A stretch of 64,000 nucleotides of DNA, from NCBI RefSeq assembly GCF_022654015.1, contig NZ_CP073063.1:372001-436000 (forward strand). The letters run 5' to 3'. The notes under the pieces are model-generated. The model ran no database searches. It was not told where the DNA came from and saw nothing but the letters and a program-made list of their open reading frames with translations. Both the position numbers and the translations under genes were made by a program. This document shows positions 8,666 through 59,686 of the stretch, in pieces. Each line of letters starts with the position of its first letter. Position 1 is the first letter of the stretch. The DNA comes from Brevundimonas diminuta. GTDB taxonomy: Bacteria; Pseudomonadota; Alphaproteobacteria; Caulobacterales; Caulobacteraceae.

Positions 8666-8696
8666 GTGCTATCGGCCTTTCGGCCTACTTGAGCAC
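8666..8696 (+). repeat. Palindromic element copy E2
   Basis: Outer arms GTGCT (8666-8670) and AGCAC (8692-8696), inner hairpin CGGCCTTTCGGCC, then TACTTG. It lies 3 bp after the gdhZ stop. Confidence 0.8.
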
Positions 8697-22623: not shown

Positions 22624-22786
22624 ATCCTCCCCCGCCCAGCGGGGGAGGGGGACCGCGAAGCGGTGGAGGGGGCGACCGCATCGCCGATGCTGAACGCCTC
22701 ATTCAAGCACCGTGCGATTCTCGCCCCCTCCACCACGCTGCGCGCGGTCCCCCTCCCCCTTTCCGCTGCGCTTCTCGGGGGAGGAT
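22624..22786. repeat. Long C/G-rich inverted repeat R1
   Basis: Left arm begins ATCCTCCCCCG and contains GGTGGAGGGGGCGA; right arm mirrors it and ends GGGGGAGGAT. The arms are about 50-65 nt around a spacer of about 45 nt. Same family as R2 at 53811-53947. It lies between pirin and alaS. The remainder of the gap to alaS holds no gene. Confidence 0.85.
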
Positions 22787-27208: not shown

Positions 27209-27238
27209 GTCCTACCGCCCTTCGGGCTGCTTGAGGAC
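27209..27238 (+). repeat. Palindromic element copy E3
   Basis: Outer arms GTCCT (27209-27213) and AGGAC (27234-27238), inner hairpin CCGCCCTTCGGG, then CTGCTTG. It lies between the icd stop and the icd terminator, oriented opposite to icd transcription. Confidence 0.85.
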
Positions 27239-37774: not shown

Positions 37775-37805
37775 GGCCTATCGCGCTTTCGCGCTGCTTG
37801 AGGCC
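37775..37805 (+). repeat. Palindromic element copy E4
   Basis: Outer arms GGCCT (37775-37779) and AGGCC (37801-37805), inner hairpin CGCGCTTTCGCG, then CTGCTTG. It lies between truB and rpsO, opposite to their transcription. Confidence 0.9.
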
Positions 37806-38774: not shown

Positions 38775-38806
38775 GGGCCTACCGCGCTTCGCGCTGCTTG
38801 AGGCCC
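38775..38806 (+). repeat. Palindromic element copy E5
   Basis: Outer arms GGGCCT (38775-38780) and AGGCCC (38801-38806), inner hairpin CGCGCTTCGCG, then CTGCTTG. It lies in the 43-bp gap between rbfA and truB. Confidence 0.9.
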
Positions 38807-53810: not shown

Positions 53811-53947
53811 ATCCTCCCCCGTGAGCGCTTACGAACGGGGGAGGGGGACCACGAAGTGGTGGAGGGGGCGACCCCGCGCACCGTGTCTGGTTCCGCCCCC
53901 TCCACCGCCTGACGGCGGTCCCCCTCCCCCGCGACGCGGGGGAGGAT
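53811..53947. repeat. Long C/G-rich inverted repeat R2
   Basis: Left arm begins ATCCTCCCCCG, holds GGGGGACCACGAAG and GGTGGAGGGGGCGA; the right arm mirrors it and ends GGGGGAGGAT. Arms about 50 nt with a spacer of about 35 nt. Clear homologue of R1. It separates the two S9 peptidase genes. Confidence 0.9.
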
Positions 53948-56199: not shown

Positions 56200-56232
56200 G
56201 GGGTCTATCGCGCTTTGCGCTGCTTGAGCCCC
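56200..56232 (+). repeat. Palindromic element copy E6
   Basis: Outer arms GGGGTCT (56200-56206) and AGCCCC (56227-56232), pairing with one unmatched base, inner hairpin GCGCTTTGCGC, then TGCTTG. It lies 12 bp after the second S9 gene stop. Confidence 0.8.
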
Positions 56233-58156: not shown

Positions 58157-59686
58157 TCACGCCCGGTCCGGCGCGGCGATGATGGCGGCCTTCACGGCCC
58201 GACGCCAGCCGGAAAGCAGACGCTCGCGCTCGTCCGCCTTCATGCGCGGTTTCCAGCAGGCGGGCGCTTCAGCGGGTCGCGCCTCCAGATCGGGCAGCAG
58301 TCCGACGCCCAGGGCCGCCAGGCGCGCGGCGCCCAGGGCCGTCATTTCCTGGAAGGCCGGACGCTCCACCTCCACGTCGCAGATGTCGGCGACGAACTGC
58401 ATGGCGAAACTGTTGGCGGTGACGCCGCCGTCCACCTTAAGCGTCTTAAGAGGCGGGGCGCCGTCGGCGCCCAGGGCGTCGAGCAGGTCGCGCGTCTGAT
58501 AGGCCAGGGCCTCCAAGGCGGCGCGCACGAAATGGGCCGGACCGGAGTCCCGTGTCAGCCCGACGATGGTCCCTCTCGCTTCCGGCTCCCACCAGGGTGC
58601 GCCCAGACCCGTGAAGCCCGGAACCATATAGACCCCGCCGTTGTCCCTGAGGGTCTGCGCCATCGCCTCCGACTGACGCGACTCCGAGATCAGCCCGACC
58701 CCGTCCCTTAGCCATTGAATCGCCGACCCGGCCGAGAAGATCGACCCCTCCAGCGCATAGGCGGTCTGGCCGTCGGCCCGGTATCCCAGCGTGCCCAGCA
58801 GCCGCCGGGTCGAGGCCACCGGCTCCGCGCCCACATTGGCGACCAGAAAGGCGCCAGTGCCGTAGGTGATCTTGGCGTCCCCGGCCTTGAGCGCCCCATG
58901 CCCGACAAGGGCCGCCTGCTGGTCCCCCGCCGATCCGGCGATGGGCAGAGGCTGGCCGAACAGCGCTGGATCGCTCTCGCCGATTACACCCGCGCAAGGG
59001 ACGATGTCAGGCAGGGCTTCGCGGGGGATGTCGAACAAGGCGCACAAATCGTCACGCCATTCGACCGTCTTCAGATCCATCAAAGACGTGCGTGAAGCAT
59101 TGGTCGCATCGGTGGCGTGGACACGGCCGCCGGTCAGTTTCCAGATCAGCCAGGCGTCGATCGTACCCAGCTTGACCTCGCCCTTCGCCGCCCGCTCGCG
59201 CGATCCGGGCAGAGCATCCAAGAGCCAGGCGAACTTGGTCGCCGAGAAATAGGGATCGAGAATAAGGCCGGTCGTGGACTGGACCCTAGGCTCGTGGCCT
59301 AGGGCGGTCAGGCGGGCGGTGACGTCGGCGGTGCGGCGATCCTGCCAGACGATAGCGCGGTGCAAAGGTTCGCCTGTCGCGGCGTCCCAGATCACGGCCG
59401 TCTCGCGCTGATTGGTGATGCCGATAGCGTTGAAGCGTGCGACGCCGCCGGCCTTGCGCACCACCTCTCGACAGGTCTGGAGCGTCGCGGTCCAGATTTC
59501 GGCGGCATCATGTTCGACCCAGCCGGATTTTGGGAAATGCTGAGCCAGCTCGATCTGGCTGACCGCGACGGGCCTCAGGTCTCCTTTTTCTTCGCCTGCC
59601 GCGCTTCGCGCTGCTTGAGGCGCGACCTCGAAGGCGATGGCGCGGGTCGAGGTCGTGCCCTGGTCGATGGCGAGGATCAGGCTCAT
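58157..59686 (-). CDS. glpK: Glycerol kinase carrying an element-encoded insertion
   Basis: 509 residues. FGGY kinase: DQGTTSTRAI near the N-terminus, GWVEHDAAEIW, NQRETAVIWD, and the C-terminal KVDGGVTANSFAMQF. It phosphorylates glycerol. Relative to E. coli GlpK, a loop of about 14 extra residues occurs after DQGTTSTRAIAFE; residues 22-32 of it are encoded by palindrome E7. The insertion is in frame and sits between the first beta strand and the SQ segment, so catalysis may be kept. RBS GGGAGAG precedes the ATG. Confidence 0.95.
   Translation of the reverse strand: MSLILAIDQGTTSTRAIAFEVAPQAARSAAGEEKGDLRPVAVSQIELAQHFPKSGWVEHDAAEIWTATLQTCREVVRKAGGVARFNAIGITNQRETAVIWDAATGEPLHRAIVWQDRRTADVTARLTALGHEPRVQSTTGLILDPYFSATKFAWLLDALPGSRERAAKGEVKLGTIDAWLIWKLTGGRVHATDATNASRTSLMDLKTVEWRDDLCALFDIPREALPDIVPCAGVIGESDPALFGQPLPIAGSAGDQQAALVGHGALKAGDAKITYGTGAFLVANVGAEPVASTRRLLGTLGYRADGQTAYALEGSIFSAGSAIQWLRDGVGLISESRQSEAMAQTLRDNGGVYMVPGFTGLGAPWWEPEARGTIVGLTRDSGPAHFVRAALEALAYQTRDLLDALGADGAPPLKTLKVDGGVTANSFAMQFVADICDVEVERPAFQEMTALGAARLAALGVGLLPDLEARPAEAPACWKPRMKADERERLLSGWRRAVKAAIIAAPDRA
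59593..59622 (+). repeat. Palindromic element copy E7, inside glpK
   Basis: Outer arms CGCCT (59593-59597) and AGGCG (59618-59622), inner hairpin CGCGCTTCGCG, then CTGCTTG. It is 30 bp (10 codons) and lies wholly inside the glpK reading frame, read on the minus strand as about APQAARSAAGE. Confidence 0.9.

Follow-up and report, generated by a model that had tools for sequence, protein, structure and literature searches.

Among palindromes that code for protein, the best-known examples come from Rickettsia, where, as reportedly set out in the Ogata papers, palindromic elements (RPEs) lie within protein genes. RPEs and their Wolbachia counterparts (WPEs) are described as dispersed palindromes that sit in frame within protein genes, with proteins that apparently tolerate them, and the length given for RPEs is about 105–150 bp (PMC2229807, PMC10969869). 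REPs are described as hairpins of 20–40 bp that lie mostly beside gene ends, with some intragenic copies; most of the CGTC families belong to Alphaproteobacteria, the R. conorii elements RPE-4 and RPE-6 are assigned to the CGTC REPs, and two Xanthomonas species carry REPs at about the same recB site (PMC3733652). The main text of that paper mentions neither Brevundimonas nor Caulobacter. For Caulobacter, the CIR repeat family has been described with a proposed RNA folding (PMC2229807); CIR copies are about 110 bp long, contain GANTC and are reported from intergenic sites only (PMC2229807, PMC10969869).

Here we describe a dispersed hairpin repeat of Brevundimonas that has very probably been inserted in frame in a β-hairpin turn near the N terminus of GlpK. 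Among the papers listed by our literature searches, which covered little of the subscription literature, none was recognised as a description of this family. The window is the whole 64,000-nt stretch of DNA that was analysed; its genome is referred to as G000, and the other G-numbers denote genomes of the genus set (n = 131). The window contains glpK, which encodes a protein with the Pfam domains FGGY_N and FGGY_C, and glycerol kinases in the PDB match this protein with E down to 3.3e-151. The original prediction placed a 30-bp palindrome in frame inside glpK, and an inverted repeat was found at exactly the predicted coordinates, within a frame that is open and intact around it (Table 1).

Table 1. 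Positions in the window of glpK, the inserted element and the other family copies
Feature	Position	Strand	Remark
glpK, glycerol kinase, host of the insertion	58157..59686	-	ORF of 509 aa; PF00370 + PF02782
Palindromic element	59593..59622	-	24-nt core + 3-nt arms; touches codons 22–32
Conserved 24-nt core	59596..59619	-	CTCAAGCAGCGCGAAGCGCGGCAG; canonical strand is glpK sense
Variable turn	59579..59623	-	Residues 22–36, between predicted strands 13–21 and 37–46
Family copy (core) outside glpK	27212..27235	-	
Family copy (core)	38779..38802	-	10 nt before ATG of a 309-codon ORF
Family copy (core)	56205..56228	-	Site empty in all three compared relatives (G000 428205)
Family copy	8669..8693	-	4-nt GAAA loop
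Family copy	37778..37802	-	4-nt GAAA loop

A dispersed family of small hairpins

The 20-nt core of the element, with up to three mismatches allowed, occurs four times in the window, compared with a mean of 0.01 after shuffling, and the total rises to six once two copies with four-base loops are counted. On the G000 chromosome, a pattern search recovered 28 close copies, whereas the same pattern read backward as a control recovered two. The family pattern matches 110 of the 131 genus genomes; the backward control gave no hits in most genomes and at most two per genome among those listed. Four-base-loop copies, with loops that include GAAA, GCAA, GAAC and GAAT, are matched in 57/131 genomes. Of 249 genomes sampled across the bacterial family (22 genera), the pattern was present in 43, which belong to two of the genera. 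A chance origin of the family was rejected on the basis of the shuffle and backward controls and the genus-wide matches. Within the window, Rfam returned no match at the gathering score, and a search of plasmids and phages with a 41-nt hand-made consensus, a test of low power, gave no match at E 0.1. When the element was searched as a peptide in the glpK frame, glpK was the sole gene at E <0.03 among the matches listed.

On the glpK-coding strand, the consensus compiled by eye reads (A)ACG-NN-CTCAAGYAGCGCGAAGCGCGRTAG-N'N', followed by an A-rich tail, with a unit size of about 30–40 nt. In the predicted fold, an outer stem leads through a CAA bulge into a short inner stem, which is closed by a GAA loop. 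Shuffle z-scores for folding were −3.1 for the hand-made consensus and −3.1, −2.7 and −1.2 for members of the family; values of −0.6 and −1.9 were obtained for the flanked glpK copy and for the opposite strand, respectively. The stems of the family covary. The outer variable positions are Watson–Crick paired in 49 and 51 of 58 copies (shuffled means of 20.9 and 27.1; maxima of 30 and 39), and inner position 11–17 is paired in 50 of 58 (shuffled mean of 28.0; maximum of 40). Among the 19 glpK units, inner pair 10–18 is C–G in ten and G–C in eight, so that 18 of the 19 are complementary at this pair (shuffled mean of 9.6; maximum of 16).

Family members often occur in tandem. Sixty-one adjacent spacings were collected from seven genomes, with the intergenic ones taken from the listed copies and a pair in a DUF6065 gene included; they range from 37 to 44 nt, with one of 58 nt, and 19 are multiples of three. 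Regular arrays of 7 and 12 units, with periods of 38 and 40 nt, are seen at G011:C1:618885-619136 and 667829-668292, respectively.

In the one genome for which all 28 chromosomal copies were placed, the element is polar relative to genes. Its tail side lies at most 45 nt from a same-strand start in 8 copies and from an opposing stop in 11, whereas its head side has a start nearby in one copy and stops nearby in six. Random sites had a start within this distance at a frequency of 0.229 and a stop at a frequency of 0.037, a control that is unfair to intergenic copies because it is dominated by intragenic sites. Along the chromosome, 22 of the 28 copies lie at 0.15–0.82 Mb, five at 2.68–3.19 Mb and one between, as if about half of the chromosome were avoided.

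When 17 G000 copies over 400 kb were compared by eye with three relatives, one of which was unreadable at two sites, about ten were found to be absent from at least one relative. At sites 264457 and 581041, different element variants occupy the same place across the genomes compared. Many of the filled and empty site pairs also differ in flanking bases. Of the features of a MITE, terminal inverted repeats with target site duplication, the arms are paired; these filled and empty comparisons revealed no obvious target site duplication, and no donor was definable. Mobility of the element is inferred, a point that counts against our reading. Two core-like hits (G000 282783 and 297970) proved to be ordinary sequence common to all four genomes compared. 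The matching variable arms had hinted that the element enters existing short palindromes at their centre, an idea to which the empty sites seen lend no support. Two copies, L050 and L055 (G000:C1:300228 and 2682037), have flanks that are identical over the bases compared, and the element therefore also lies within a larger duplicated segment. A second repeat family of 38 nt is present in the window at 22640–22677 and 53836–53873 (CGGGGGAGGGGGACC..GGTGGAGGGGGCGACC; copies 95% identical), and sequence like it stands beside or replaces element copies in relatives at G000 399212 and 410779.

The in-frame copy in glpK

Base 2 of codon 22 is the first position of the element, and base 1 of codon 32 is its last. 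It had been said to span exactly 10 codons; 30 nt is indeed the length of 10 codons, but the element is out of codon phase and touches 11 of them. The residues read from it, A22–E32 (APQAARSAAGE), are those predicted. The nearest element-free alleles are those of G128, G038 and G069, whose GlpK proteins are 96% identical to that of the window. Relative to these alleles, the net insertion is 33 nt, or 11 codons, and the stretch from DQGTTSTR to SQIEL contains 27 residues with the element and 16 without it. Against one solved GlpK (4e1j), the gap at this site is 14 residues; against another (3g25), the alignment shows a gap of 12 residues, with 2 more slightly downstream.

A GlpK match was obtained in 129 of the 131 genus genomes, and the turn was readable in 128 (the G031 sequence is cut off). 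A recognisable element is present in 16 of these GlpKs: eight in group A, to which the window belongs (G000, G127, G060, G017, G125, G126, G021 and G023), six in group C (G035, G056, G029, G015, G032 and G036), and those of G003 and G093. The other 112 lack it, including close relatives that are empty at the same site, and none of the element-free GlpKs read has the same residues from ordinary codons. These observations bear out the claim that a dispersed palindromic element has become a protein segment. The G032 gene carries two in-frame units with a period of 36 nt and the G036 gene three with a period of 42 nt, and all 19 glpK units share a single reading frame. Among 22 proteins viewed of 120 listed from metagenomes and databases, P0029 appears to have two units and P0087 appears to be another case, both judged by residues only. 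Element-free turns are mostly 16–17 residues long. Six are longer and have no recognisable element (27 residues in G011; 23 in G046, G050 and G053; 20 in G030 and G079), which suggests that the turn can also grow otherwise or that these turns contain decayed elements.

By alignment, solved glycerol kinases have a short turn at the insertion site. In a structure model built from 52 aligned sequences (mean pLDDT of 90.8), residues 22–36 lie between strands 13–21 and 37–46, and only 26–29 and 31–33 run for at least three residues below a pLDDT of 50; the loop is thus predicted to be a floppy turn. Across eight group A genes, the pN/pS ratio is 0.68 for the loop and 0.09 for the rest of the gene; when G023 is left out (seven genomes), these values are 0.35 and 0.08. 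The kinase is accordingly strongly constrained, and the loop much less so. Mismatches in glpK units fall on codon positions 1, 2 and 3 in 6, 8 and 7 cases, with no third-position excess. Because the loop is predicted to be floppy and its constraint is relaxed, it looks tolerated rather than of proven use.

Other coding copies

The frame survey of coding copies covered 78 loci, a part of the genus copies. A second host is a small protein with no Pfam family that is found in 124 of the 131 genus genomes, in which units lie between an LKR(T/K)P start and the conserved body. These units are read in another frame than in glpK, giving RSSSPKGDSA. We read 29 loci (the 30 best-scoring of 124 and that of G109, two being unreadable). 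Three have no unit, 18 have at least one with at most two mismatches, and the best-filled locus has five when weak units (up to eight mismatches) are included. With all frames scanned, 30 of 30 units with at most three mismatches fall in one frame, and each of the ten pairs of neighbouring units of this quality has a spacing of 39 nt; hits with eight mismatches in another frame, in nine genomes, were dismissed as noise. The shared frame and the fixed 39-nt period argue that the region is translated, although the frame is not independent evidence because related genomes may have inherited it once. Mismatch rates at the three codon positions are hardly skewed (0.118, 0.113 and 0.145). The start of the protein would be a TTG or CTG 11–12 nt after the TGA that closes the upstream frame, an uncertainty that means part of the N terminus could be untranslated; the same warning is given for N-terminal REPs in PMC3733652.

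In a third case, at L362 of G003, a DUF6065 protein encoded on the minus strand of the locus (stop-to-stop ORF 516–1689) seems to read through three head-to-tail elements on their other strand, with the tail SRFALLEAVMVGL repeated. Its relatives mostly terminate before the elements, and this case, being confined to one genome, is not counted as proven.

Judged from its letters, the consensus core is open in four of six frames; three of the open frames occur, each in a different gene, although the third is known from a single genome. It is a substantial possibility, though not our leading expectation, that the two core genes are recurrent landing and amplification sites of one selfish hairpin, with units gained, amplified in frame and then lost. 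Were that so, these protein segments would act like a coding minisatellite built of a mobile element, and selection on the repeat itself would favour translatability.

Competing explanations and comparison with known systems

GC-rich coding DNA commonly contains short inverted repeats, and some long loops exist without the element, as might be expected if the palindrome had arisen by chance in an ordinary GlpK loop. A fourfold occurrence of the core where 0.01 was expected, sister alleles that are 33 nt shorter and the in-frame tandem copies leave this explanation practically no credence. The family could instead act mainly at gene edges, as an RNA or DNA hairpin with a regulatory role, and its coding copies would then be accidental. 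Such a role would fit the polarity of the 28 chromosomal copies toward starts and opposing stops, the covarying stems and the additional presence of four-base loops such as GAAA and GCAA; we nonetheless consider it somewhat unlikely, in view of gain and loss at orthologous sites between near relatives, a window without an Rfam family at the gathering score and a random control for starts that, dominated by intragenic sites, is itself high. The original prediction went further and proposed exaptation, a term that implies use; one could think of a loop recruited for GlpK regulation or assembly. This proposal fares poorly and is improbable: the loop is predicted to be disordered, its pN/pS ratio is about 4–8 times the value found elsewhere in the gene, sister species lack it and its presence is labile on the tree. 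In its favour are the constant frame, the abundance of small and polar residues, the eight group A genomes that carry the loop and a pN/pS ratio below 1, for which the seven-genome value leaves room for weak constraint. In-frame insertion of a dispersed repeat into a tolerant turn remains our preferred reading.

How often the turn was entered was assessed on a glpK tree of 123 tips built with the loop removed. Element presence (16 tips) is scattered among sister tips and requires 13 parsimony changes, compared with a mean of 15.3 and a minimum of 13 over 200 label shuffles. A single ancient insertion in an early Brevundimonas GlpK turn, followed by many losses and allele exchange, would account for what all 19 units share (frame, orientation and the two inner pairs of the outer stem), but at a cost of 29 losses; a history of gains alone takes 14 of them, and a separate single gain in group A and in group C entails four and eight losses, respectively. 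Allele exchange is visible at least once. Between the empty alleles of G069 and G128, divergence at the junction is 0, 0 and 1% (three 150-column windows), compared with 1–15% in 25 windows elsewhere; the final three windows, at 48–55%, are not alignable. Part of the patchy presence is the result of such exchange, and gene-tree patchiness, which can come from recombination, counts to that extent against repeated insertion. Three further observations are harder to reconcile with one event. The element starts either two or three codons past the conserved FE, depending on the genome. Group C has a compensated inner stem, GGGC-GAA-GCCC, a rare variant matched in 15 of the 131 genomes. Outside glpK this variant is found in six genomes of the 15-tip group C clade, in five of which it lies about 11–12 kb from glpK on the same contig, and in five other genomes. 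Finally, the empty group A alleles (RDQDL/REQNL) resemble the element-free outgroup turn RDHDL. A single insertion is accordingly unlikely, and the varying offset and the group C stem make part of the record look like separate insertion; recurrent separate insertion into the turn is probable.

Selfish or neutral in nature, the repeat would spread mainly to the edges of genes; in GlpK it would be retained only where the added length is divisible by three and the frame is open, presumably because the turn tolerates extra residues. Mobilisation by a RAYT found no support: Y1 transposase had no match in G000 or in any of 127 of the 131 genus genomes, and Y1_Tnp is present in four, while the element matches 110. 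We tentatively suggest, as a possibility that may well prove wrong, that the element spreads independently of a REP-type transposase, through the copying of hairpin-forming single-stranded DNA (template switching, with slippage for tandems) and through homologous recombination between species, of which the G069/G128 tract is one visible case.

As the original prediction anticipated, the analogy with Rickettsia holds in outline: like RPEs, the Brevundimonas element sits in frame within protein genes that are conserved apart from it, and it is absent from homologues. Unlike RPEs, its unit is about 30 nt plus a tail (a distinction based on the described RPE length), its hosts form a free-living genus, and its units fill the same turn in several lineages, with in-frame tandems. 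Like REPs, these are small hairpins near gene edges, often stops, as judged from 28 copies in one genome with an imperfect control. In contrast to the GTAG and CGTC REPs, the element has no conserved end tag: 60 distinct copies vary, the bases preceding the core are CGTC, CGGC, CGGG, CGTG and others, and GGTAG or GATAG lies within the stem. The stem is also bulged, the loop is mostly 3 nt and the arms vary by compensatory changes. CIR resembles it in being a repeat family, known from Caulobacter, but the Brevundimonas core is 24 nt, lacks GANTC and is present inside genes.

The element thus appears to be a natural example of a repeat that adds pieces to proteins, apparently in translated form. 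A free-living genus offers empty, single, double and triple versions of one site in near relatives, which makes insertion, in-frame growth, hairpin decay and the effect on the enzyme directly testable, and the host enzyme, glycerol kinase, can be assayed. We do not file the family under RPEs or REPs, because the RPE length, the REP end tags and the transposase association are lacking; it works like RPEs and intragenic REPs and matches neither by these criteria. The kind is already known, and the Brevundimonas record of filled, empty and multiplied sites is an unusually clear instance of it.
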